Shown here: positions 5,611-25,832 of the stretch, piece after piece
How positions within the stretch are numbered: the first letter of the stretch is position 1
How the letters are laid out: each line of letters begins with the position of its first letter
Origin: a virus
DNA: 27,952 nucleotides
Reading direction: 5' to 3' (one strand)
Virus record (IMG/VR): IMGVR_UViG_3300045303_000151
Location: 1-27,952 of that record
Made by a program: the position numbers and the translations under genes
Notes under the pieces: model-generated
Databases searched by the model: none
What the model saw: only the letters and a program-made list of their open reading frames with translations
What the model was told of the DNA's origin: nothing

Positions 5611-5798
5611 TATGTGCCCCCTTTTTTGTATTTTCCCGCCAGGACATTTTCAATGACAGCACTGAATTCAGTCATGGCTTTTTCTCTGGAAAAGCCCGCG
5701 GCGACCAATCTTTCAAGGACGCCTCGCGTAAACCATTCATCATCGCACTCAAGCGTTTGCCTGATCGCATCAAGCACCATTTCCTCAGGCAATTTCAT
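5610..5798 (-). CDS. Small hypothetical protein
   Basis: 62 aa helical protein (start LPEEMVLDAIRQTLECDDEW, end KYKKGGT). No family recognised. The ATG at 5798 overlaps the YqaJ stop (ATGA). A longer in-frame reading from 6080 was rejected because it would lie antiparallel-free but wholly inside yqaJ in another frame and has a junk-like Arg-rich composition. It follows the nuclease gene directly, so it could be a small partner of the recombination proteins. Confidence 0.6.
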   Translation of the reverse strand: MKLPEEMVLDAIRQTLECDDEWFTRGVLERLVAAGFSREKAMTEFSAVIENVLAGKYKKGGT

Positions 5799-6436
5799 GC
5801 CGCCGCCTGCTCGCCGTACAGGCTGTCGAGCTGCGCGAGCTTGGCGGCCAATTCCTTCAGGAACGCTGCGGCCTCGGTTTCCAGCTCGATGATTCGCGCT
5901 TCGTCGCGTTTGACTCGCCTCACGAACAACCGCATGTGCTCGGGAAAGGAAGGGTTGTAAGAGGCGTAGTCGCACCATTGGCGGCCGGTCACAGCCATCA
6001 GCCACATCATTTGCGTGAGGTATCTCACCGGAATCTCCTGGCCTAACAGCGTTTCCAGATGGGCCGCTGGTTGCGGACATTTCAGTTCAAGGCCGCCGGC
6101 CTCACCGATTAACCCGTCAGGACTGACGTGACTGCCTTCGATGGTAGGATGGCGGATCAGCCCAACCTGATCGACAGTGTTGCCAGAATAAAACGCATAA
6201 GCATTGCGACCTTCCGGCTCGGTGTCAGTGCCGTGCTGCATGGCTTGCGTGATGAACTTATCGGCTGGCTGGCCAGTCAAGCGCTCGCAAATCAGTTCGG
6301 CCATCAGGTTGGCACGGGACGCCCCGTACCCTGTTTTGGTGCGGACGATTGCCTCCTGCATCCTTGACCCGCCGAGACTGCCGACGCGCGCCAGGCGCCA
6401 TTCCTCGCTACCCTGAACCAGTTCTGTCTCGCTCAT
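5795..6436 (-). CDS. YqaJ-like viral recombinase (lambda-exonuclease family)
   Basis: 213 aa nuclease of the YqaJ/lambda Exo family, which resects double-stranded ends for phage recombination. Visible features are the N-terminal QGSEEW (8-13), HGTDTEPEGR (68-77) and the PD-(D/E)xK centre: D107 in SPDGLI, then E117-L-K119 in GLELKCP. The C-terminal part (about 170-213) is a helical, possibly coiled-coil region. The ATG at 6436 overlaps the erf stop (ATGA), and a start at 6571 would add an unrelated Arg-rich leader. Coupling to a single-strand annealing protein (Erf) makes a standard two-component phage recombination system. Confidence 0.92.
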   Translation of the reverse strand: MSETELVQGSEEWRLARVGSLGGSRMQEAIVRTKTGYGASRANLMAELICERLTGQPADKFITQAMQHGTDTEPEGRNAYAFYSGNTVDQVGLIRHPTIEGSHVSPDGLIGEAGGLELKCPQPAAHLETLLGQEIPVRYLTQMMWLMAVTGRQWCDYASYNPSFPEHMRLFVRRVKRDEARIIELETEAAAFLKELAAKLAQLDSLYGEQAAA

Positions 6437-7179
6437 TTTGCAGTCGTTGCCTTCTTCTTGCCGATCGCAATGATCGCGCGTTGATAGTCTTTCGCCGGAA
6501 GGTCGGAGATTTTGTCTATGCCGAAGTAGTTGCAAAACGACGTATCGAAGCCGTCCGCAACAGCCGCGCACTTGTCGAAAATTTCCTGGGTCTGTTGGGC
6601 CGTGATCTTTTCACCGTCGCCGGCCGCCTTGCCGTCGTCGTCATTGCCGGCCGCCAGCCCGAGCATCTGCACCAGCGAATAGCGTTGCAAATAGGTCAGC
6701 GTCGAGCCGATCGCCTGAATCGCGTTCTTGTTGCCGCTGGTGTCGGCTGGTCCAGACAGCGTGGTTTCCTCGGCATGGCCGGCTTTGTGCGACAGGATGC
6801 AGGTGACGCTGATGCGATCGGTCTGCGTGGTGCGGAACCTGTAGCTCAAGCCATGCGCGCCGATGATCGGATCAACCACCTTGGCGATCGCGGCGAAGTC
6901 CGCATATTTCTTGGCGTTGTGGCCGGTGACGTTGCGCGTAATCGGCGGGATGTCCCGCTTCGCCGCCGCAACCGCCTCGTCGAACGCCTTGCGGGCCTGG
7001 TTGGCATCCCAGCGCTCATGCAAGGCCATCAGCTTCTCAATCATTGCGATGTCGGCGCCGGCGAGCACCGCCCGATTAAGCATGTCGAGCGGAGTGACCT
7101 GCGGCGCTGGCGGCATCGCAGCTGCGGGCCCGGGGTCGTCCGGCGGTATCACGGAAACCTTCTCAAGTTTTTCGTTCAT
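6433..7179 (-). CDS. erf: ERF-family single-strand annealing protein
   Basis: 248 aa. The central region (about 55-195) matches the ERF family: AFDEAVAAAKRDIPPI, KYADFAAIAKVVDPIIGAHG, YRFRT, and IQAIGSTLTYLQRYSLVQMLG with the typical GS..TY..RY..... core followed by DDDG. The first 30 residues are a Pro-rich tail and the C-terminal 50 residues are helical and Lys-rich. ERF proteins anneal complementary strands during recombination and genome circularisation. It is encoded immediately upstream of the YqaJ nuclease with a 4-bp overlap, as expected for functional partners. Confidence 0.95.
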   Translation of the reverse strand: MNEKLEKVSVIPPDDPGPAAAMPPAPQVTPLDMLNRAVLAGADIAMIEKLMALHERWDANQARKAFDEAVAAAKRDIPPITRNVTGHNAKKYADFAAIAKVVDPIIGAHGLSYRFRTTQTDRISVTCILSHKAGHAEETTLSGPADTSGNKNAIQAIGSTLTYLQRYSLVQMLGLAAGNDDDGKAAGDGEKITAQQTQEIFDKCAAVADGFDTSFCNYFGIDKISDLPAKDYQRAIIAIGKKKATTAK

Positions 7180-7560: not shown

Positions 7561-8343
7561 TCATCCGCGCGTGATGGTGGGGACCGCTGCGCGCGGAATT
7601 CGGTATTTGCTTTTGACGATTTTTTGCAGGAGAGCGGGCGTAGGTGGATTGCCGTGCAATATGTCATGCACCACGCAATTGATTTGATCTGAAGCGGCTT
7701 CGGGGCCGATGTCGAGCCGAATGAGATGGGTTAGGTATTCAATTGCGGCCAAACGTTCGGACGTGGACAGCCTGCAAGCAATATTTAGCAGCTGGTCGAG
7801 CGATGTCGGTTTTTTCCGGAAGCCTGCTTTGATGGCGGCGGCATTGGCAGACAGCTCGCCAGCGCAGACCCTGTCGAACAGCTCTTTGTCCTCGCGCTTC
7901 AGCCGGTCGAGCGTGTAGGCGAGGTCATTGCCGCGCTTTGGTTCAATAGTTACATTGTCACTATTGATTTTGGCTTGCTCCGATTTCTGGTCCCCGCCGG
8001 GTTTACGCGTGATCGCCGCTCGGTACATGCGTAGCGCATCGACATCGCCGCTCTTTTTCACCAGCGCCTCAACATATTTCGGCTCCCAACCGCACCCGCC
8101 TTCGTGCTTACTGGTGGTGATGAGTTCCCGAAACGATTTGAACTCGTAGAGCTTCATATTCAGCCAGAATTCGCGCCATGCCTCGGTTTCAATCACCTTG
8201 CGCACAGCCTGTGGAACGTGATTGAGATTGCACATTTCCACAGCCCGGCGCATCGCTTCGACGTCGTGGCCAAGCCAATTCAGTTTCTTTTTCTTAAGCG
8301 GCGGAACCGGATTGTCCGCCTTCATCACGACAAGGCCCATCAC
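7561..8343 (-). CDS. Conserved-type hypothetical protein
   Basis: 260 aa. A Lys-rich N-terminus (KKKKLNWLG) is followed by two helical regions. The middle segment (about 120-190) has a pattern I know from uncharacterised bacterial and phage proteins: GGDQKSEQ, then NDLAYTLDRLKREDKELFDRV, then CAGELSANAAAIKAGFRKKP. The last resembles a helix-turn-helix, so DNA binding is possible. The GTG start at 8343 overlaps the helicase stop (GTGA); an ATG follows at 8340. The gene is followed by the hairpin at 7523-7560. Function unknown, but it sits in the replication block. Confidence 0.7.
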   Translation of the reverse strand: MMGLVVMKADNPVPPLKKKKLNWLGHDVEAMRRAVEMCNLNHVPQAVRKVIETEAWREFWLNMKLYEFKSFRELITTSKHEGGCGWEPKYVEALVKKSGDVDALRMYRAAITRKPGGDQKSEQAKINSDNVTIEPKRGNDLAYTLDRLKREDKELFDRVCAGELSANAAAIKAGFRKKPTSLDQLLNIACRLSTSERLAAIEYLTHLIRLDIGPEAASDQINCVVHDILHGNPPTPALLQKIVKSKYRIPRAAVPTITRG

Positions 8344-10922
8344 GCAACTCCAACGTCACTCTCATTGATTTCATTATCGTAGATCGCCGATGTTGATCCG
8401 ATCCCGCCCATCCAGATCATTAGGTTCTTGGCGAGCCTTTTAATGCGCAACCGGGTTTGCGGCGCGATCAATTGATAATGATACCCAGGACGGTCCATAG
8501 GCCCATCATTGCGACAGGGTTCGGGCCCCACGATTGAGATCCATTTGCCTGACGGATCCTTGATGACCATGCCTGCAACGATCGCTGTCGCCTTGTAGAC
8601 AGCGGCGGACAGTTTGCTGATCTGGGTATAGTCGAGCAGGCCACGCTCTCGTAATTCATTGTACATCTCGGTGCGCAAATCAGTCAGGATGCCGGGCTGA
8701 CCACCCTCCTCTTGCAACCGCCGGATCTTAGAGACCTGTCGAAATAGCCGCACATCCTCGCGCCGTTTGGTAATTGCAACCATCTGGCGCAGCTTCTCGT
8801 CGGTTCGAATCTCGCTTGCCCATGCATTGTCGATGTCATCCGAATTGATGATGAAGCTGGCAAGCTCCTCGATGGAATAGGCGTCGGCTTTTTTTGGCTC
8901 TTCCTGACACACCGGACGGATGATGTGCTCCAGCGGCACGTCAAGGCTAATCATCTCCCTGCGATATTTTTCATCCGTCAGCACACTCTTCGAATGCGTC
9001 TTGGCAGACTCGATCCAATCCTCCGACTGGGCATTAATGCCACCGACATCTCGAATAATGGCACCAATTTCCTCCTCGGTCGGTTGCCGCCCCTGCGCGC
9101 AGATTTTTCCCAATTCGCTATCAATTTGAAGTTGGTCCATCATGGTGAACGGCGAAGTCGGATCTTGCGGCGGCTTCTCCTCAGTGCGGCTGCGACCTTC
9201 AAGAATATCGATCCAGTGATATAGCTTGGCCGCTTCAATCTTCTGATCCATGTGAGCGACGAAATCCCACGCCTTCTGGATCGCACCAACCATATCGATG
9301 ATCTCGTTCGGGAAATACCAGCGCGGATGACAGAACTCGTCGAATTCATCTCGTTTATGCATCGGCACCAGATGCAGCGGCAACCGTGCCAACCGCCCCA
9401 ATGTCTGCACCTGTTCCTTCACCGAATTGCTGCGCTTCAAATCGACCACGAAAGTTAGCGGCCAATTATTCATGCCGCGCACGCCGATATCGACAAGAAA
9501 GATGATGCGCTTGCAATCGGAAGTGCAGCGCCCTAGCAGCCCCGGACGCTTCGCCAGCATGAACGGATTGACGAAGTCGCTCGATTTATGAAACAGCCGG
9601 GTTTCTTCCCTTGGGATTTTTCGACCGCGCTTTTTAGCCATCTCCGTCGCGTCAGAGATTCCGTAGGTTGCGCTCCAGCCGTCTTCGGCAGAATAGCCCT
9701 CGCGCGCCAACTCGATATTGGTCAACTCGCACAGATCAACAGCCTCCTCGCGCGTGCTGCAGTAAACCGCGATGTGCGGGCTATACCAGTGATCCGGCCA
9801 CGCCAGTTTCATCCGCTGCTCCAACTCGGATGCATCCTTGACGGCAGCGCGAATCGCCGCCATCGCACCAATAAGCGAATGTTTTTCGCCATGCTGACCT
9901 TCGCCGCGCACTTCGACGGCTCGTTCCCAGCGCGTGTAGCCGTCATGCGTGATCGGTTGAATGAAATGCCGGATTTTGGCGTCCTGCCACGACAACAGCG
10001 GACGAAGACAATGGTCCTTCGCATAAACTGATGCGTGACTGGCCACACTGGCGAGTGCAAAGAACTTCCGCAGAAAGTCTCCTTTGGCGTCAAGGTTGGC
10101 AGCGGTTAGACCAAACTTGAGTGCGTGCGGAGCCAGCCGCACCAGACGCTCAGTGGCGTCCACCGCAAAGTCGCACTCGTCCCAGATAATTGTGTCGAAC
10201 GGTTCAAGGATTTTCAGTACCTGTTCATCGGTGCGCCGCGCATTCTTCTTGCCCCACAGCGCCTGCGGACAGGAGATGGTGACGTCATGATATCCGGGGC
10301 CACGCTCAAGATCGCCGGTCTCATCGCAAATCTGAACTTCCGGTTCGATCTCGCGCAATTTGAATTTGGTGATCTCGGTTTTCAGCTCATGCAGTAACTG
10401 CCTGCACAGATCACGCTCATGGACAAACCAGAGCACGCGCTTAGGACGCGGCGCATTCTTGAGACGGTTTCGAACCTCATGGCAAATGGTAAAAAGGGAG
10501 GCGACCATTAGCAAGGTCTTGCCTGCGCCACAGGTCAATGCAAACAGCGAAACGCTTTCGAGCAGCTTCAGCCGCAATCCGCCAACAAACAAATCGCCGT
10601 AGACTTTGATGGTGCCGGGTCCAGCTTCATGCTGCTGCCCGCGCAATCTGGTCAGATCGTAATTGCCGTCGAAATAGCCCTTCTCCTCCCACTTCGGATC
10701 GTGTGTCATGCCTCTTTCCCTGTTGTAGCGTTTACAGACCAGCCGGGTGTTGGCGAGGCTGGTCTCGCCGCCAAGTCCGCGAGAATGTATGTGATCGACC
10801 TCGAGTTCGCTGTCGCATTTGGAAGCGCAGCGCACCTCGCACTCAGAGCCGGACCTCGACAGCAACGCCATCCAAATTTCCAGGCTCATGTCGGCGGGCT
10901 TATGCGGCAGTTTCCAATTCAT
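8340..10922 (-). CDS. HNH nuclease-SF2 helicase fusion
   Basis: 860 aa. The N-terminal 20-70 is an HNH-like domain: C28, C32, C36, D43-H44 (VDHIHSRGLGG), N58, C63, N67. From about 105 a superfamily 2 helicase follows: Walker A GAGKT (132-136), motif II DECD (248-251), motif III GLTAAN (271-276), a domain-2 strand IAVYCST (384-390) and motif VI QTLGRLAR (506-513). The C-terminal 300 residues are helical and unassigned. A phage helicase of this kind (compare UvsW or RAD25-like enzymes) could open origins or drive branch migration. It is the largest early gene and lies 9 nt behind the preceding gene. Whether the HNH part is an active nuclease or only a DNA-binding zinc module is not decided by reading. 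Confidence 0.88.
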   Translation of the reverse strand: MNWKLPHKPADMSLEIWMALLSRSGSECEVRCASKCDSELEVDHIHSRGLGGETSLANTRLVCKRYNRERGMTHDPKWEEKGYFDGNYDLTRLRGQQHEAGPGTIKVYGDLFVGGLRLKLLESVSLFALTCGAGKTLLMVASLFTICHEVRNRLKNAPRPKRVLWFVHERDLCRQLLHELKTEITKFKLREIEPEVQICDETGDLERGPGYHDVTISCPQALWGKKNARRTDEQVLKILEPFDTIIWDECDFAVDATERLVRLAPHALKFGLTAANLDAKGDFLRKFFALASVASHASVYAKDHCLRPLLSWQDAKIRHFIQPITHDGYTRWERAVEVRGEGQHGEKHSLIGAMAAIRAAVKDASELEQRMKLAWPDHWYSPHIAVYCSTREEAVDLCELTNIELAREGYSAEDGWSATYGISDATEMAKKRGRKIPREETRLFHKSSDFVNPFMLAKRPGLLGRCTSDCKRIIFLVDIGVRGMNNWPLTFVVDLKRSNSVKEQVQTLGRLARLPLHLVPMHKRDEFDEFCHPRWYFPNEIIDMVGAIQKAWDFVAHMDQKIEAAKLYHWIDILEGRSRTEEKPPQDPTSPFTMMDQLQIDSELGKICAQGRQPTEEEIGAIIRDVGGINAQSEDWIESAKTHSKSVLTDEKYRREMISLDVPLEHIIRPVCQEEPKKADAYSIEELASFIINSDDIDNAWASEIRTDEKLRQMVAITKRREDVRLFRQVSKIRRLQEEGGQPGILTDLRTEMYNELRERGLLDYTQISKLSAAVYKATAIVAGMVIKDPSGKWISIVGPEPCRNDGPMDRPGYHYQLIAPQTRLRIKRLAKNLMIWMGGIGSTSAIYDNEINESDVGVA

Positions 10923-12305: not shown

Positions 12306-12542
12306 ATGACCAGCATCGCAACAACGAGCCGGATTTCGCTGGCCCGCGACGCCGTCTGGGAAGCCCTCCACACTTGCGTCGTGGACGAGGAGGCGCGGCG
12401 GCTGCTACGGCAGGCGCTGCGCCTGATGCGCCGGAACCGGAAAGGGAGGCGGAATGCGGCGTTGGACTTCGGAAAAGACGGATCTGGTGCGCGAGCTCTA
12501 CCCGACGCACTCGGCGTCGGTCATCGCGCTGAAGATCAATGA
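12306..12542 (+). CDS. Small hypothetical protein overlapping gcrA-like gene
   Basis: 78 aa. The N-terminal 55 residues are helical with the look of a real protein (SLARDAVWEALHTCVVDEEA, then RRLLRQALRLMRRNRKGRR). The last 25 residues are read in the frame offset from the gcrA-like gene and look unstructured. The ATG at 12306 has GGGGA about 9 nt upstream. It overlaps the next gene by 89 bp, which is unusual in this tightly but minimally overlapping operon, so confidence is moderate. Function unknown. Confidence 0.45.
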   Translation: MTSIATTSRISLARDAVWEALHTCVVDEEARRLLRQALRLMRRNRKGRRNAALDFGKDGSGARALPDALGVGHRAEDQ

Positions 12543-12948
12543 GAGGTTCGGTGGGGCCTATACCCGCAACAGCATCATGGGCGTGATCTTCCGCCACAAA
12601 CTGAAAAAGGGCGGCATGGGCAGTCATCCGCTGCACCAGCTGGTTCAGAAAAGGCCACCACGCAAAATGAAATTCAAGCCGAAGCCTGAATGGAAGCCGC
12701 CGCCATACATCGGCCCGCGCCCGCGCGGCATCCAGTGCCCTTGCCAGGTCGTCGACCTCGAGCAGTACAATTGCCACTGGCCGGTCGGCGATCCGCGCGA
12801 GCCTAACTTCTACTTCTGCGGCGCCGTGGTGGTGCCCGACCAGCAGTACTGCCCGACGCATTATGCCATGGCCTATGCAAGATCGCAGGAGAGATTTTTG
12901 TCGCCGATAATCGGCGTGGATCGAAACCTGAAGAGAGAAGCGGTATGA
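12454..12948 (+). CDS. GcrA-family transcription regulator
   Basis: 164 aa. The N-terminal 1-52 is the GcrA DNA-binding domain: RRWTSEKTDLVRELYPTHSA, SVIALKINERFGG, TRNSIMGVIFRHKL. The C-terminus keeps the family's RNA-polymerase-sigma-binding signature: C107-H-W-P-V-G-D-P, FYFCG (120-124) and C133-x2-H136. In Alphaproteobacteria GcrA acts with sigma-70 and CcrM methylation (GANTC) to control cell-cycle genes. A phage copy could redirect host promoters or serve phage ones. The middle 55-95 is a Lys/Pro-rich linker, as in the family. The ATG at 12454 has a strong GGGAGG site. It is the first clear gene of the rightward operon and overlaps the next gene by 4 bp. Confidence 0.9.
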   Translation: MRRWTSEKTDLVRELYPTHSASVIALKINERFGGAYTRNSIMGVIFRHKLKKGGMGSHPLHQLVQKRPPRKMKFKPKPEWKPPPYIGPRPRGIQCPCQVVDLEQYNCHWPVGDPREPNFYFCGAVVVPDQQYCPTHYAMAYARSQERFLSPIIGVDRNLKREAV

Positions 12949-13199: not shown

Positions 13200-13576
13200 C
13201 GCTGCTGAAAATGACTGCCGCATGCGTAGCGATGTTCACGCTACTGATGGTCTTTGCGATTCAGCGTATTCCGGTGCCCGAACCGGCCGCAGCCGCCGAG
13301 CGACGCTTCGACGATGCCTGGCAGGACACCATCCGCGTGATCCCATTGAAGAAAGCAGATCGCCTTCAGATCGCATCCACCGAGCCCAAACCGGTTACCG
13401 AGCGCATCATACCACCTGCCCCCGATGCGCCGGTAAGCGTGCCGCCTGTTGTTGTGGTGCAGGACGATGACAAGCCGCCTGCAGCGCGACACAGGCGGCA
13501 GCGCGACGTCTGCACCAAACACGGCATGCACAAGGTGACGATCCGAGGCGGCAAAAGTTGGAGATGCCGGAAATGA
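13190..13576 (+). CDS. Membrane-anchored periplasmic protein
   Basis: 128 aa. An uncleaved anchor or signal (about residues 4-24, MTAACVAMFTLLMVFAIQ) is followed by an Ala/Pro-rich extended region (30-95) with a VPPVVVV stretch, and a basic Cys-containing C-terminus (C112 and C126, ending SWRCRK). The topology suggests a protein fixed in the inner membrane and reaching into the periplasm through a proline-rich stalk. No family recognised. Its stop overlaps the next ATG (ATGA at 13573). Confidence 0.6.
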   Translation: MAVTLLKMTAACVAMFTLLMVFAIQRIPVPEPAAAAERRFDDAWQDTIRVIPLKKADRLQIASTEPKPVTERIIPPAPDAPVSVPPVVVVQDDDKPPAARHRRQRDVCTKHGMHKVTIRGGKSWRCRK

Positions 13577-13869
13577 GCGACCTCTTGCTTCGGTTACGCA
13601 CTTTTTCTGGCTGGACGACAAGAGACGTGCCCGGCGTTTTTCTAAACGACACGGCTATCATGTGCTGGGACGCGATCGACGAAATCGAACGGCTCCGAGA
13701 TGCGCTGCAATGCATGATCGATTTCGTAGGAGATGGCTGCCCAGACGGTAGCTACGGTTATTGTATGACGGAAGCCAAAGCCGCGCTGAATGGGATCAGG
13801 GCCATACCCAGTGCCGCGCTCGACAAGGACAAACGCGCGCCGCCCGATGCAGCCGGAGAGGACAAATGA
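13573..13869 (+). CDS. Array protein 1: coiled-coil small protein with variant tail
   Basis: 98 aa, first member of the tandem array. The N-terminus SDLLLRLRTFSG resembles the SDLVERLRSF of the third member. The helix IDEIERLRDALQCMIDF corresponds to the RIEALEAAL motif of the others. The tail SAALDKD (13813-13830 in DNA) is followed by an extra 13 residues ending AGEDK, as if an insertion had split the common AALDKD-AGK tail. The ATG at 13573 overlaps the previous stop; in-frame starts at 13558 and 13564 are less likely. Small proteins of this layout (ERLR... RIEALE... ARAAL) are frequent and uncharacterised in alphaproteobacterial phages. Confidence 0.65.
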   Translation: MSDLLLRLRTFSGWTTRDVPGVFLNDTAIMCWDAIDEIERLRDALQCMIDFVGDGCPDGSYGYCMTEAKAALNGIRAIPSAALDKDKRAPPDAAGEDK

Positions 13870-14117
13870 CTGAGAAATCGCATTACGAGCAGTTCGTTGA
13901 CTACATCATGAGCGACGACGACAGCGAGCTCGGCCGGATGAAGGCAGAGCGTGACTATGCTCTGCATGCCCTCGAAAGAGAGATCGCGATTGCGCACCAG
14001 GCCCAAGCCCGCGTCGAGGCGCTGGAAGCAGCGCTAGAGACTATCTTGGACGAAATTGATAGCAAGATACAAGCGTTCTTGAACCGCGCCGCGCTCGATA
14101 AGGATGCAGGAAAATGA
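13866..14117 (+). CDS. Array protein 2: coiled-coil small protein with AALDKDAGK tail
   Basis: 83 aa. An acidic N-terminus (YIMSDDDSELGR) is followed by one long coiled-coil helix including ARVEALEAALETILDEID, and the common tail NRAALDKDAGK. Start and stop both overlap neighbours as ATGA, and GGAGAGG precedes the ATG. The final codons carry AAGGA 9-10 nt before the next ATG and so double as its ribosome site. Function unknown. Confidence 0.7.
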   Translation: MTEKSHYEQFVDYIMSDDDSELGRMKAERDYALHALEREIAIAHQAQARVEALEAALETILDEIDSKIQAFLNRAALDKDAGK

Positions 14118-14344
14118 GTGATCTCGTGGAACGGCTGCGCTCATTTCATTACGCAAACCCCGTCTATAACGCCACACAAGAGGCCGCCGACCGCATCGAG
14201 GCGCTGGAGGTGGCGCTATGGGAGATTGCTCATCAAGAAACAACTGACGAAATGGAATATCCCGACCGAGTCGGCTTTGAAGGCGCGTATGACATTCTCG
14301 TCCGTTTAGCCCGCGCCGCGCTCGATAAGGACGCAGGGAAATGA
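14114..14344 (+). CDS. Array protein 3: coiled-coil small protein with AALDKDAGK tail
   Basis: 76 aa and the clearest form of the family. It runs SDLVERLRSF, a variable loop, DRIEALEVALWEIA, a second variable part and the tail LARAALDKDAGK. It overlaps both neighbours by ATGA. The tail codons contain AAGGA at 9 nt from the following ATG. The family is common in phages of Rhizobiales but has no assigned role; the coiled coil suggests oligomers, possibly mixed between members. Confidence 0.7.
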   Translation: MSDLVERLRSFHYANPVYNATQEAADRIEALEVALWEIAHQETTDEMEYPDRVGFEGAYDILVRLARAALDKDAGK

Positions 14345-14460
14345 TGAACATGCTGGCACGACCTACGCTTAGCGCTTTGTGGGACAGCGAATGTGGCGAC
14401 GATCTTGGCTTCATCGTGCGAAGTCGCCACGCCGCGCTCGATAAGGACGTAGGGAAATGA
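14341..14460 (+). CDS. Array protein 4: 39-aa gene with only the tail conserved
   Basis: 39 aa, starting MMNMLARPTLSALW and ending RHAALDKDVGK. It lacks the coiled-coil motif completely; only the last nine or ten residues match the other members. It starts in the ATGATG that overlaps the preceding stop and ends in ATGA with the next start, so it fits exactly between two array genes. It is either a true mini-gene or the remnant of a deleted member kept because its 3' end carries the ribosome site for the next gene. Confidence 0.55.
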   Translation: MMNMLARPTLSALWDSECGDDLGFIVRSRHAALDKDVGK

Positions 14461-14642
14461 GCAAATGCCGTTGGTGTGAGCGAGAAGGAAGTTGGCCGTC
14501 AATCTGTATGAGCACGCGAGACATGGAAGAGCGGCAAAACGACTATGTTTGTAATGCTGAATTGTTGAAGGCTGGTGGTGGCGAATACAGTATCAACCAA
14601 GCGCGCGCCCACGCCGCGCTCGATAAGGACACAGGGAAATGA
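14457..14642 (+). CDS. Array protein 5: Cys-rich small protein with the common tail
   Basis: 61 aa. The N-terminus has C4, C7 (KCRWCEREGSWPSIC) plus C17 and C32, reminiscent of a small zinc-binding knuckle. No RIEALE coiled coil is present. The tail ARAHAALDKDTGK matches the array. ATGA overlaps occur at both ends. A different body attached to the same tail suggests that the 3' cassette moves or persists independently of the upstream part. Confidence 0.6.
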   Translation: MSKCRWCEREGSWPSICMSTRDMEERQNDYVCNAELLKAGGGEYSINQARAHAALDKDTGK

Positions 14643-15157
14643 ACGAGCGCGAGCAGGCTTTTAAGATCGCCAATAATTGGCTTGATAATAATATGGATGC
14701 CTTGGTGGAGATGGTGCCGGGAGACCCGGACTGCGATGCATGTGTGCTGGCCAGACAATTCATACGGTTGTCAGACCGCATCGAGGCGCTGGAGGATGCG
14801 CTGCGGAAGATCGCGGAATGGCCACCATCATCAAGGATTGACGACATCATCGGCGCTTTTATTGACGCGAAGCTGTTCGCCCGCGCCGCGATCGATAAGG
14901 ATGAGGGGCTGCCTTTCAAAGGGCCGCGTGGCAGGTCGCGCATGGGGAATCATCTGATGACTGGCGAATTCGGACCTGCGCCGATGTTTGAGGAAGACGC
15001 GGAGAAGGTCGAGCCGGTTGCTGATGAGGCGCCCGCATCCGCTCGCATCGAGGCGCTGCGAGAGATGGCGGATTTGGTTGATATCGAAAGCCGACGAACC
15101 ATTAACCATTGCTATTCAATCGCCCGCGCCGCGCTCGATAAGGATGCAGGGAAATGA
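14639..15157 (+). CDS. Array protein 6: fusion of two array units
   Basis: 172 aa, twice the usual size. Unit one ends with the motif DRIEALEDALRKIA (about 45-58) and an internal tail ARAAIDKDEG (about 81-90). A linker of about 45 residues follows, then unit two with ASARIEALREMADL and the terminal tail IARAALDKDAGK. The internal tail DNA (14885-14908) has lost the AGGGAAATGA end. Two neighbouring genes have apparently fused in frame. Starts and stops are ATGA overlaps. Confidence 0.7.
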   Translation: MNEREQAFKIANNWLDNNMDALVEMVPGDPDCDACVLARQFIRLSDRIEALEDALRKIAEWPPSSRIDDIIGAFIDAKLFARAAIDKDEGLPFKGPRGRSRMGNHLMTGEFGPAPMFEEDAEKVEPVADEAPASARIEALREMADLVDIESRRTINHCYSIARAALDKDAGK

Positions 15158-15501
15158 AATCAACCCAAGCAATGCGAGATAGATGCCGTGAGTTGTCAAC
15201 GCCAAGTGATGATTACGACCGCGCTGTAATCTGCATTCTCGATGATTTCGAGACGCTGCAGGCGCGGGTCGAGGCGCTGGAAGCGGCGCGGGAGGTAGAC
15301 TTGCGGGAATGTGCTGCTCAACTCGACCAGAACACCGCGACTATGGACGTGGCCCGCATCCGTATCGAGACGCTGGAGGCGGTGCTGCTGGAAGCAGAGC
15401 GGTTCATGGCTTACTTCGCCGACGGAGCAACCAGCTTTGTCGGCCCCGGCACTCCGATTAGTTGTCTAGCTAAAATTCGCGCGACTCTGGAGTTGGGCTA
15501 A
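15154..15501 (+). CDS. Array protein 7: coiled-coil protein with decayed tail
   Basis: 115 aa. It has two coiled-coil motifs, ARVEALEAAREVDLRE and IRIETLEAVLLEAE, suggesting internal duplication. The C-terminus KIRATLELG occupies the place of the ARAALDKDAGK tail but is degenerate. The next gene begins by a TAATG overlap instead of ATGA with an embedded AAGGA. It begins with ATGA at 15154 behind a perfect cassette. Confidence 0.65.
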   Translation: MKSTQAMRDRCRELSTPSDDYDRAVICILDDFETLQARVEALEAAREVDLRECAAQLDQNTATMDVARIRIETLEAVLLEAERFMAYFADGATSFVGPGTPISCLAKIRATLELG

Positions 15502-15779
15502 TGACATCTAGCGTTGAAGCGCTCATGCAGCGGCTACACGAGCGCACCACAGAGCGGGACTATCACAAGCGAATGTGCGACACATTGGCCGCACGCATCG
15601 AGGCGCTGGAGGCCGCGCTAGAACGGTGTGCCAAATTTGCGGACGATTTTGATTGCCATCTTGGCGGCTACCCAAACGAAGAAGCGCAGCAATTTTACGA
15701 GACTGGAGTGCTCGACGCTTCCAGCTTGATCGCAAAGCATATTCGCGCCGCGCTCGATAAGGACGCCGACCGTGACTAA
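15501..15779 (+). CDS. Array protein 8: coiled-coil small protein with AALDKD tail
   Basis: 92 aa. SVEALMQRLHERT, then the motif ARIEALEAALERCAKF, a variable acidic part (GGYPNEEAQQFYETG) and IRAALDKDADRD. The DNA of the tail is identical to the others through the AAGGAC, then diverges. The AAGGA still lies 8-9 nt before the GTG of the next gene. The ATG shares its A with the previous TAA. It is the last member with the tail. Confidence 0.7.
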   Translation: MTSSVEALMQRLHERTTERDYHKRMCDTLAARIEALEAALERCAKFADDFDCHLGGYPNEEAQQFYETGVLDASSLIAKHIRAALDKDADRD

Positions 15780-15972
15780 AATGTTCGTATCAACAGTTGG
15801 TACATTGGCCGACAGTCGTTTGATCTCGATGGCGACCAGTAGCATCGACTTGGTGATCTTGCGTGGACTGGTCGAGAGAGCTGAGGGGCGCTGGCCGTTG
15901 TCGTTGCATCAACAGCAGCTCGATCGATTGGTTTACGTTCGCGATCTGTTGAGTGAGTTCATGCAGGAATAA
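15772..15972 (+). CDS. Small hypothetical protein
   Basis: 66 aa with a GTG start overlapping the previous gene by 8 bp; an ATG at 15781 would shorten it by three residues. It reads as a helical protein (LVERAEGRWPLSLHQQQLDR, then LLSEFMQE) with no tail cassette and no coiled-coil motif of the array type. It is probably coupled to array protein 8 through the AAGGA in that gene's tail. Confidence 0.55.
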   Translation: MTKMFVSTVGTLADSRLISMATSSIDLVILRGLVERAEGRWPLSLHQQQLDRLVYVRDLLSEFMQE

Positions 15973-16142: not shown

Positions 16143-17126
16143 ATGCGGTTTCCCGCCATCGAAGGTTTGAGGGGATGGTTAGCGTGGGCGGTGGTACTGG
16201 ATCATTTGGCATATTGGTCGGATCGATGGGGCCGGTTAGGCACCGTGCTGCGGGAGTTGGGTCATCCCGCAGTGCTAGGTTTTATATGTGTATCCGGTTT
16301 TGTCATTTGTCATTTGATCCTGACCAAACCCGAGCCTTATTCAATCTACATCACGCGGCGTTTCTTTCGCTTATTCCCGCTGTTCGCTGTCACCTGTATC
16401 GTCGGTTACTTCGCCTACCGACTGCAAGTGCAACTGCCCGATCCGAATTTCGCGCCGGGCTTCATGACGGACTTGCGCCGAATTGTCGAGAACACCGATC
16501 AATACTTCTGGGCGCACGTGATGATGCACACGAGCATGCTCTACGGCGTGCTGCCGCAGAACTGGCTGCCCTCGAGCGATGTCGCATTCAACATGCCAGC
16601 GTGGTCGATCTCGCTGGAGTGGCAGTTCTATCTGATCGCGCCATTGATCGTGGCACTATTGGTCAGGCGGCCGCGATTGGCGCCGGCCTTAGTCGTGGCG
16701 GTAGTGCTGTTGCAAGTGCTGTTCTATCGTGGCTGGTTCGGCGGCTACCATCAGCCGGCCACGTTGCCGGCGGCGGCCACGTTTTTTGCGATCGGCATCG
16801 CCAGCCGCTGGTTCTACCCGAGAATCGAAGGACGGCTACCGAAAGTATTTAGCTATGCACTGGAGAACCCGATCGCGCTCTACCTCGGTTCGAGGTCCTA
16901 CTCGACCTATCTGGGGCATTTTATCGTGCTGGTTGTCTGCCAACATGTCGCAGTGCGGTTCTTGGGCACAGCGCCTAGTTTCTTGGTGTTGGCAACGATG
17001 GTGATCCCGGCCACCTTGCTGTTCTCGGAACTGCTGTATCGCACTGTCGAATTGCCGGGGATCAGGCTAGGCTCTCGATTATGCAAGCGGCCTGAGAGCC
17101 CAACGGTCCTTAGGAAGGTTGCCTGA
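16143..17126 (+). CDS. Acyltransferase family 3 membrane protein (O-acetylase type)
   Basis: 327 aa integral membrane protein of the acyltransferase-3 (OafA/NodX-like) family. It shows the N-terminal R10-x10-H21 motif (EGLRGWLAWAVVLDH), a second conserved stretch FICVSGFVICHLIL, basic RRFFRLFP after helix 3, and WSISLEWQFYLIAP. About nine or ten hydrophobic segments are seen. Such enzymes transfer acetyl groups to surface polysaccharide on the periplasmic side. Phage copies typically modify the host O-antigen and thereby the phage receptor (lysogenic conversion). The gene has no structural role in the virion and sits at the end of the rightward operon, opposite the tailspike gene. Confidence 0.9.
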   Translation: MRFPAIEGLRGWLAWAVVLDHLAYWSDRWGRLGTVLRELGHPAVLGFICVSGFVICHLILTKPEPYSIYITRRFFRLFPLFAVTCIVGYFAYRLQVQLPDPNFAPGFMTDLRRIVENTDQYFWAHVMMHTSMLYGVLPQNWLPSSDVAFNMPAWSISLEWQFYLIAPLIVALLVRRPRLAPALVVAVVLLQVLFYRGWFGGYHQPATLPAAATFFAIGIASRWFYPRIEGRLPKVFSYALENPIALYLGSRSYSTYLGHFIVLVVCQHVAVRFLGTAPSFLVLATMVIPATLLFSELLYRTVELPGIRLGSRLCKRPESPTVLRKVA

Positions 17127-23583: not shown

Positions 23584-23772
23584 TTAGAAAGCTCCGAGGT
23601 ACATCGAATCGTAAAACCTGGAAAACACCAGAGAATAAATTACATCATCTGTCGGATAGTCGTCCGGCGTGTAGATGGTGCCGGGACGAATGATTGTTGG
23701 CGGCTCACCTGCCGAAGCGCCGATGTTGCCCGGTTCGAATAGCGCGGTGATACAGTCATCAAGCAGTGGCAT
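23584..23772 (-). CDS. Small tail-region hypothetical protein
   Basis: 62 aa with no recognised domain, acidic and aromatic at the C-terminus (SLVFSRFYDSMYLGAF). Its ATG shares one base with the stop of the hub gene (TGATG) and its TAA abuts the next ATG. Packing without gaps supports a real gene; it may be a small tail-tip or chaperone protein. Confidence 0.6.
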   Translation of the reverse strand: MPLLDDCITALFEPGNIGASAGEPPTIIRPGTIYTPDDYPTDDVIYSLVFSRFYDSMYLGAF

Positions 23773-25832
23773 CAGGTCGGCCCTCCGCGCGGGAAGGCGC
23801 GGGTCGGTGGGGTAAATCCGGCATCGGTCTGGTAGCGCGCGATCCCTTTAGTGATGCGGACCTCGTCAACCCAGCCCTTCATCGGCGTGGCGAACCAGGT
23901 ATTGGCACCGATCCCTATCGGTTGATTTGGATTGAACATGCTGCTATCGGTCGGCGTGACGCTCGCCATCGGCACTCCGTTCTTGTAGATCCTGATTGTT
24001 CCCGAACTATCCTTGTCGACAGCGAGATGGTACCAGATTCCAGTCGTCAATGCCGCGCCGCTGGATTGCACCACCGCATTGAAGACCGATCCGTTTGACG
24101 ACGATCTGAAGCCGAATTCGGTACCGCTTCTTTCGAAGGTCCACGAGTAGTTTCCCGGCTCGAACGACCAGTTAAGCAATGTCCCGGTAGCCGCCGAGAT
24201 GTCGGAGAAGCGCACCCAGCATTCGATCGTGAACTGGTCGGAATTGGCAACCGATAGCCGCCAATCGCTACTGGCTAGGAATTCGATCAATTGCTCGACG
24301 CCGCCAAGCAACATCGACGACACACCGAACTTGAATTGCGACGTGTCGATCTGCGGCAAGTTGAGCGGGTTGGCGGTGCCGGTGCCGTGGTGCCGGAGGC
24401 TTTCGTCGGTGAATCCTGGCGCCCCCTGCGAGCCGTCGACGCCCTCGAAACCAAGCAACAGCACCACGTAGATGAAATATGGATCGGTGCTGTCGTCCAC
24501 CACAAGCGAACAGCGCAGAATCGATTCCAGCGTCAGCTCCACCGCGTAGTTGACGCCATGCGTGGTCTCGATGACCTTGAACACCTCGTTGATGAAATCG
24601 TCGCCGAGATCAAGCAGTGCCACCATGTCACCCGGCTCGATCTCGAGCCCGTACAGCATCGCGGTCGCCGCCACCCGCTTCCGTGATACTTCCTGCTGAT
24701 ACAGCGCATAGGTCACCAGCGACTGCCGGGTGTGCGCATCTAGGATCGTCGGCAGGAACACCGACTCGCTCGACACCGAACTCGACACCGCCACCGGCAC
24801 CCGCGGGAACACTGCCTTGCTGGGCACGATGGTATAATCAGCACCCGGATCGATGGTAGTCAGTTCGAGCTCGCGAGGCACGCTGTCCCGCGCCGCCCGC
24901 GACAGCATCACCTGCCCGCTCATTCGCGAGCGGTTCAGGTTGATATCGGCCGTCACCGCCGCACCGCGATCGACAATGCGCAGCTTGTCGGTCTGCAGGA
25001 TATCCCAATTGGGATAGAATCGGCCGAATTGCTGGATGGTCGCGAGGAACTCCGCGTCAGCCGCGAAGATCATCCCGCCGCTGGCATCGGTGATGCCGAC
25101 CGTCTCGAATTGCGCCGAGGTATAGTTTACCCAGGGCGACAGTGCCAGGCGAGTGAACCCTTCTCCCATGTTGATCATGTCGCCGACTGAATCAGCGATC
25201 ACCGCCGCCACGTATGGGATCTTCTTGAACTTGGTGGCCTGTAACGGCAGATTCGCGAACCACAGCAGCATTTGCGGCCGATAGGCGATGGCATCGGCGC
25301 CGTAATGCGCGATCTCGATCGGATCGGCGGCCTGGGTCAATGTCCCCGGATACCAACGGTAGGTGAATCCCTCGGTTGAGAATCCATCCGCCGCGGTCCA
25401 CACCACTTCCGAATCGAACGCGATCTCCCGCAAGCTTCGCGTACCAGCAGGATCGGCCGGCACACCGAAGCTAATGCAGAACGTCGCGTTGCCATTCTCG
25501 ACCCATGGCCCCGCAATAATCTCACCACCGATACGCGCCAGTCCCAGCACCGAGAGCGGCACTGGGTGGCCGTATAAACTATACGACGTCTCGGTCGGAT
25601 TGACGCCGGTCGAGGTCGAGACCACCGGACTAGTCGCAGGCGGAACGGCCTGACTCGCGACCGGGTACCACGCCATGTTGTTGGGATCGGCGCGGCCGGC
25701 AAGAATATCGGCAGGGTCCGCCTGTCGATAGACGTATGAACCAGGCGCGAACTTGCCGCCGGCGCCCCACTCGGCAAGAATATTGCCGCCGCCAAGTGGC
25801 GTATATTTTACCGGATCGTCTTGCCAGGCCAT
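23772..25832 (-). CDS. Tail hub protein with C-terminal LamG/ConA-like domain
   Basis: 686 aa. Residues about 1-460 resemble the phage-tail/GTA hub family: MINMGEGFTRLALSPWVNYT, a run of beta-rich domains, LELTTIDPGADYTIVPSKAV, and YGLEIEPGDMVALLD. This part builds the baseplate hub at the tail tip. Residues about 465-686 form a Laminin-G/concanavalin-like module: FTIECWVRFSDISAATGTLL, WYHLAVDKDSSGTIRIYKNG, and GWVDEVRITKGIARY, which often binds carbohydrate. The hub is shorter than the classic GTA hub, which also carries a TIM-barrel domain. ATG start directly after the DUF2163 stop. Confidence 0.85.
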   Translation of the reverse strand: MAWQDDPVKYTPLGGGNILAEWGAGGKFAPGSYVYRQADPADILAGRADPNNMAWYPVASQAVPPATSPVVSTSTGVNPTETSYSLYGHPVPLSVLGLARIGGEIIAGPWVENGNATFCISFGVPADPAGTRSLREIAFDSEVVWTAADGFSTEGFTYRWYPGTLTQAADPIEIAHYGADAIAYRPQMLLWFANLPLQATKFKKIPYVAAVIADSVGDMINMGEGFTRLALSPWVNYTSAQFETVGITDASGGMIFAADAEFLATIQQFGRFYPNWDILQTDKLRIVDRGAAVTADINLNRSRMSGQVMLSRAARDSVPRELELTTIDPGADYTIVPSKAVFPRVPVAVSSSVSSESVFLPTILDAHTRQSLVTYALYQQEVSRKRVAATAMLYGLEIEPGDMVALLDLGDDFINEVFKVIETTHGVNYAVELTLESILRCSLVVDDSTDPYFIYVVLLLGFEGVDGSQGAPGFTDESLRHHGTGTANPLNLPQIDTSQFKFGVSSMLLGGVEQLIEFLASSDWRLSVANSDQFTIECWVRFSDISAATGTLLNWSFEPGNYSWTFERSGTEFGFRSSSNGSVFNAVVQSSGAALTTGIWYHLAVDKDSSGTIRIYKNGVPMASVTPTDSSMFNPNQPIGIGANTWFATPMKGWVDEVRITKGIARYQTDAGFTPPTRAFPRGGPT

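Follow-up and report, generated by a model that had tools for sequence, protein, structure and literature searches.

It has long been asked whether phage mosaics are joined by homologous recombination at conserved boundary sequences or are joined at random and then sorted by selection, and the use of boundary sequences as exchange sites is an established idea for which evidence exists in some phages (PMC3233612). In the cluster I mycobacteriophage Island3, the unrelated genes 67 and 68 have about 60 bp, or 18 residues, in common at their 3' ends, which has been read as a homologous exchange site (PMC3029335). Short repeats are also found at translation starts, as in the Start Associated Sequences of cluster K mycobacteriophages, which have the consensus GGGATAGGAGCCC and lie 3-7 bp from the start (PMC3203893), while the PeSL cassettes of T4-type phages are mobile elements made of a promoter and a stem-loop (Arbiol 2010, Comeau 2014, as cited in PMC4503421). 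Genes that overlap by the four nucleotides ATGA are subject to coupled termination-reinitiation (PMC6728339). The locus described here is a tandem array of nine small genes at positions 13573-15972 of a soil phage, the IMG/VR virus record IMGVR_UViG_3300045303_000151, whose 27,952 bases were analyzed in full and are referred to as the window; most of the genes carry a repeated cassette that encodes a shared peptide, AALDKD, near their ends, and at most copies the start of the next gene follows.

Comparison with related phages makes it probable that blocks of these genes are swapped by homologous recombination at two anchors, one lying within the genes and the other being the cassette, which would also provide the stop, the Shine-Dalgarno sequence and the restart. 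The array is like Island3 genes 67 and 68 in that unrelated genes share a 3' end at an exchange site, but differs from them in having 46 copies in ten arrays, in holding the Shine-Dalgarno sequence and start overlap of the next gene inside the repeat, and in having a second, intragenic anchor. The Start Associated Sequences are likewise short, one-orientation repeats at the ribosome-site position of different gene families, with a Shine-Dalgarno core and conservation extending past it; however, the core of the cassette is GCCGCGCTCGATAAGGA and not GGGATAGGAGCCC, and the Start Associated Sequences are not known to encode a shared C-terminal tail or to be sites of block exchange. The cassette resembles the PeSL elements as a repeated regulatory element between small genes where modules shuffle, but it has no common hairpin and lies inside coding sequence. 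Termination-reinitiation at ATGA, with the Shine-Dalgarno sequence within the upstream gene, would be the mechanism expected here too, although it is general and involves no repeated cassette. The ninR region of phage lambda is reported to be a chain of interlinked genes (Kroger and Hobom 1982, cited in PMC7166090). Its small genes, like those of the array, are linked by stop-start overlaps; no shared peptide tail is known to occur there. What appears to be new, no description having been found in a partial literature search, is that one repeat may serve as the coded end of many unrelated proteins, as the Shine-Dalgarno sequence and start of the next gene, and as a recurrent exchange edge, together with an intragenic anchor.

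Block exchange at the two anchors

Many array genes have the same layout, namely a head, a first repeat (anchor 1, read as RVEALEAAL or RIEALEAALR), a middle, and the cassette as the tail (anchor 2). In the window, anchor 1 lies at 14010-14039, with more copies near 14192, 14777, 15044, 15265, 15361 and 15594. Anchor 2, with the codons CGC GCC GCG CTC GAT AAG GAn ... ATGA, lies at 14085-14117; further full copies are at 14312-14344, 14428-14460, 14610-14642 and 15125-15157, and core-only copies at 13810, 14882 and 15744, all of them on the + strand. Neither the second frozen repeat inside the genes nor the role of both repeats as points of block exchange between phages was part of the original prediction made for this DNA.

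The cassette recurs, always on the coding strand, in related metagenomic phage contigs of IMG/VR that were found by scanning with its DNA pattern; a reversed control pattern was present in 0 of the cassette-bearing phage contigs. At least nine copies lie in 3300045282_000259 (G001), several each in 3300045285_000083 (G004), 3300014326_000185 (G005) and the pair 3300047388_000423 and 3300047409_000495 (G002 and G003), which represent nearly the same phage sampled twice; the other contigs have one or two. The curated set comprised 46 core copies from ten arrays, the window included, with G003 alone used from the G002/G003 pair; several phage records are fragments, and the copies are not independent of one another.

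In these arrays, the blocks between the anchors were found in changing combinations. A head beginning with MSDRKSAERAIEALR carries two different middles, in G004 and in G001; a G001 middle beginning with QRIVQWSEAYPLDIFPEPDW is found with another head in G008; and the gene at G004:10383 consists of the head of window gene 7 (MKSTQAMRDRCREL..) and the middle of a G001 gene. Similarly, the head of window gene 2 has a different middle in contig L231, and the end of window gene 7 has a different head in G007. When the arrays were matched by BLAST, 40 of the 58 match ends were located at anchors in each of the two arrays (controls with shifted anchors gave a mean of 3.0 and a maximum of 17; 0/2000), as were 18 of the 26 ends in a strict set of strong matches (shifted-anchor mean 1.5, maximum 9). 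Since the anchors themselves can extend such matches, they were masked in the block comparison, which gave 18 homologous block pairs between phages (of which three are short or marginal or precede the array). The neighboring block beyond the anchor was homologous in 0 of 32 cases, and homology often ended 0-3 nt from an anchor; blocks of 406, 132 and 157 bp matched up to 0-1 nt of the anchors at both sides, and nucleotide identity was up to 98% to the anchor edge, with none past it. The array genes are chimeras with their edges at the anchors, and they show two features of boundary sequences, in that a short similar sequence borders the exchanged blocks and homology is present on one side only.

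Full-length tandem duplication was rejected as the origin of the repeats, the bodies outside the anchors being mostly unrelated, so that the cassette idea of the original prediction survives. An assembly artefact is also unlikely: independent samples give the same array, the G002 and G003 arrays being >99.8% identical over ~16 kb and G006 and L234 agreeing over 426 bp, which argues against misjoining at repeats. The cassette had moreover been called self-propagating, but nothing suggests autonomous movement, and the data fit homologous recombination.

The cassette as coded tail and probable start signal

In the window, the 17-mer GCCGCGCTCGATAAGGA has eight matches, each on the + strand, at ≤3 mismatches, against an expectation of 0.11 (0/100 shuffles reach eight). 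Six are exact (14088, 14315, 14431, 14613, 15128 and 15747) and two have one mismatch (13813, with GAC for GAT, and 14885, with ATC for CTC). The array had been placed correctly and its eight copies recognized by the original prediction, which erred in not distinguishing the two inexact copies and in reading all eight as AALDKD; at 14885 the peptide is AAIDKD, and this copy lies within, and not at the end of, a 172-amino-acid (aa) gene (14639-15157). Five copies do finish, as it described, in near-identical 12 bases, GCAGGGAAATGA, up to an ATGA overlap with the next ATG; their AAGGA ends exactly 9 nt ahead of that ATG, and the Shine-Dalgarno sequence thus lies within the upstream gene. The gene bodies also vary as it had noted, from coiled-coil-like to Cys-containing to a gene of 39 aa, and the cassette is common to genes with unrelated bodies in other phages.

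Across the curated set, an ATG or GTG that opens at least 30 codons sits 4-12 nt past the core in 37 of the 46 copies, and exactly 9 nt past it in 30, whereas a start at 4-12 nt follows 11 of the 33 AAGGA sites that lie elsewhere in the arrays and 14% of sites picked at random. In most of the 46 copies, therefore, the cassette DNA is at once a coded C-terminal tail and a site at Shine-Dalgarno distance from the next start, which is the dual geometry originally claimed for the window. The junction length usually changes by three (6, 9 or 12 nt), so that the overlap is kept. Individual copies are instructive: that at 15747 is followed by a GTG start at 8 nt, and that at 13813 by no start, the next gene using a GGAG of its own; at G001:8884 the upstream frame reads through (..TGQCREP) and the next ATG is still at 9 nt; at G004:10641 the tail is altered to ..KGNEPGNTH and the start nearby is retained; and at G001:9436-9480 the cassette alone forms a 14-codon mini-gene, MIARAALDKDARLL, between two genes. 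Retention of the peptide with changed AAGGA or ATGA bases had been named as the sign of a mere peptide motif; the outcome mostly favors a cassette, the lone exception among copies with a start in the usual place being G003:11622, which has AAAGA and retains AALDKD.

No common RNA fold was detected among the cassette copies (z-scores -0.8 to +1.3), most of which fold no better than shuffles, and an Rfam search of the cassette gave no match. Because of this absence of shared folding, the Shine-Dalgarno site is predicted to be probably accessible, and, by analogy with other ATGA overlaps, translation of the next gene would be expected to proceed by termination-reinitiation at the cassette.

The codons of the cassette are nearly invariant, namely CGC in 33/33 copies, GCC in 41/44, GCG in 40/41, CTC in 41/44 (background 0.18), GAT in 39/40 and AAG in 42/43; it is to be noted that the P values for this freezing treat the copies as independent, which they are not. 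The frozen stretch, from CGC to AAG GA, reaches 15 nt upstream of AAGGA, and anchor 1, which has no start role, is likewise frozen as RIEALEAALR (e.g., CTG 27/28, GCG 25/27). For comparison, 41-81% of codons are kept in most genes shared among the same contigs, and 90-97% in some recently swapped blocks. Substitutions affect 3 of 230 sites in AAGGA and 21 of 552 in the 12 nt before it (p = 0.07). Synonymous and nonsynonymous change in the tail was compared as had been proposed, giving 10 synonymous and 11 nonsynonymous changes in the A-A-L-D codons (p = 0.04, the events being non-independent); a slight synonymous excess is thus present, and constraint on the tail peptide itself is only hinted at. 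As the freezing exceeds AAGGA, anchor 1 is frozen as well, and copies without a start persist, DNA copying is needed to explain it, with added start selection being possible.

The array genes, their neighbors and relatives

The nine genes all lie on the + strand, and their starts are predictions. Gene 1 (13573-13869, 98 aa) contains the one-mismatch copy at 13813-13829, followed by an extended tail. Gene 2 (13866-14117, 83 aa), whose head is common to L231:1655, and gene 3 (14114-14344, 76 aa) each have anchor 1 and an exact cassette (14088 and 14315, respectively). Gene 4 (14341-14460, 39 aa) is hardly more than its cassette (14431), and the Cys-containing gene 5 (14457-14642, 61 aa) has its cassette at 14613. 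Gene 6 (14639-15157, 172 aa), with the degenerate internal copy at 14885, behind which there is no start, and an exact cassette at 15128, looks like a fusion of two array genes. Gene 7 (15154-15501, 115 aa) has a head common to G003 and G004 and a C-terminal block common to G007; it is without a cassette and ends in RATLELG. Gene 8 (15501-15779, 92 aa) has anchor 1 and the exact cassette at 15747, and gene 9 (15772-15972, 66 aa) begins with a GTG 8 nt after the last cassette core (alternative ATG 15781) and has no tail. Searches of the nine genes against Pfam and PHROG gave only weak matches, none convincing.

The window encodes an integrase, ERF, YqaJ, a GH25 lysozyme, a helix-turn-helix protein and a GcrA homologue, and by this gene content reads as a temperate phage. 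The array reads rightward; it is preceded by the GcrA gene and two other small genes, and an acyltransferase gene comes next. The GcrA homologue (12454-12948; PF07750, E 1.1e-18) was found in 7 of the 9 records searched, which suggests that a member of this family of cell-cycle regulators is encoded by the phages themselves. The acyltransferase family 3 gene (16143-17126), on the array strand, has a product that may modify surface sugars of the lysogen. Elsewhere in the window, 23772-25832 encodes a putative tail protein with a concanavalin/LamG-like domain at its C-terminal end (PF13385), and 8340-10922 a protein of 860 aa that combines an HNH domain, located close to its start, with a helicase region of the ResIII/DEAD type; tblastn against cultured phages gave no match to it. 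The nearest relative of the window ERF belongs to a Bradyrhizobium phage, in which no comparable array was seen; together with the GcrA homologues, this points to alphaproteobacterial hosts for the phages bearing the array.

Upstream of the array, close relatives share a small gene (..GGKSWRCRK) that is 43-60% identical among them. Farther afield, the 20-mer CGCGCCGCGCTCGATAAGGA was present in 0 of 398 proteobacterial genomes, no cultured phage record matched the array or tail-gene DNA, and a cassette search of GenBank phages gave hits at chance level only. When viral contigs were scanned with degenerate peptide patterns, most hits were lone occurrences of RAALDK in unrelated proteins that use other codons, and three matches in genome contigs were isolated and from unrelated taxa. 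A 181-aa protein with a DPPY motif (L266:9477-10022; methyltransferase-like, weak Pfam only) has the tail IARAALDKEKK. In a prevalence control of 213 viral loci, at least three alike ATGA junctions occurred only in the cassette family and in L110. The latter (minus strand, reverse-complement ~1336-2061) has a run of small genes joined by ATGA overlaps at a recurring junction; since the genes are alike over their whole length (MTPVK..QVxxQV.. KSKMQ), it is a plain array of tandem paralogues that code for an unusual protein with QV repeats.

Explanations for the array

If blocks are swapped at the anchors, the array would consist of small, fast-changing phage genes made from interchangeable blocks, that is, a head, anchor 1 (RIEALEAALR), a middle, and anchor 2 (an AALDKDAGK end), with the anchor DNA held nearly identical across genes and phages. 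Co-infecting phages or prophages would swap blocks by recombining at homologous sequence, probably with the help of an annealing system of the ERF/YqaJ type in those phages that encode one. Anchor 2 would supply the stop codon, the AAGGA Shine-Dalgarno sequence and the overlapping start, so that an exchanged block would close the upstream frame and give the next gene a coupled start; the shared peptide tail would then be largely a side effect of the junction being coding sequence. The window encodes an ERF single-strand annealing recombinase (6433-7179, - strand; Pfam PF04404, E 1.9e-19), which is a candidate enzyme for the exchanges, and a YqaJ-type exonuclease (5795-6571, - strand; Pfam PF09588, E 4e-20), its likely partner. 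ERF was found in the window, G004 and G005 (3 of 9 records) and RecT in G007 (1 of 9); a search for these two families found neither in the remaining records, which may be fragments. Rad52-like phage recombinases, one ERF included, recombine diverged sequences at short homology, and the minimum quoted for Red-beta is 23-27 bp (PMC3945230), near which the anchors, at 20-33 nt, lie.

Several observations weigh against this explanation. The records in which ERF and RecT were not found include G001 (50 kb) and G002 (64 kb), in which other recombinase families were not searched. Between two copies from different phages, the exact run in common is 14 nt long in the median and at least 23 nt long in 20% of pairs, near or below the length quoted for Red-beta. 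The contigs were found through the cassette DNA pattern itself, and each has at least one good copy by construction. Finally, cassette copies that no start follows have largely stayed intact.

It is nonetheless improbable that the array is one fast-diverging paralogue family that arose by tandem duplication, with the coiled coil and tail kept by protein need. Many genes do follow the order head, RIEALEAALR, middle, RAALDKD, several heads have MSDLxxRLR in common, and plain tandem-paralogue chains occur in other viral contigs, as in L110; however, identity switches abruptly within genes and heads and middles change partners, chimeras that largely refute such an origin. The tail is also found on unrelated bodies (the 181-aa DPPY protein and a Cys-rich, DnaJ-zinc-like protein, both by weak Pfam matches only), and protein constraint does not explain the frozen synonymous sites. 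Slightly less probable again is that the conserved entity is only a translation-start signal, or a start site bound by a phage factor in the manner of the Start Associated Sequences, with swapping being incidental. The 9-nt spacing, the few substitutions in AAGGA and the absence of a shared RNA fold, which leaves the site probably accessible, would suit such a signal, but the freezing reaches farther upstream than AAGGA and also affects anchor 1, where nothing starts, and match ends fall at both anchors; moreover, the core is not maintained by selection on starts alone, because copies with no start behind them are mostly intact. The original prediction had itself raised the alternative that the tail, AALDKD(A/T)GK, is a docking or localization peptide for a common partner, its DNA identity resulting from recent spread. 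This is very unlikely: A, A, L, D and K are retained in 40-44 of 45 tails, in line with the slight synonymous excess, yet codon freezing is far above that of other genes, the tail is replaced or extended with the start kept at G001:8884 and G004:10641, and several chain genes have no tail, among them gene 7, whose same-head gene in G003 has one. A docking role of the peptide thus finds little support in these sequences.

Beyond the swapping of blocks by homologous recombination at the two anchors, it is possible, and we suggest it only tentatively, that the array is a two-anchor combinatorial locus in which selection keeps both sequences alike in many genes as sites where heads and middles can be recombined, the resulting new small proteins being at once closed, restarted and translated; it would then act as a slow diversity-generating system for early phage proteins. 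For the question of how phage mosaics arise, the locus offers dozens of near-identical junctions plus an intragenic one, at which the exact edges of swapped blocks can be read and tested. A single sequence serving as protein end, translation start and exchange site would help to explain the fast gain of working small genes.

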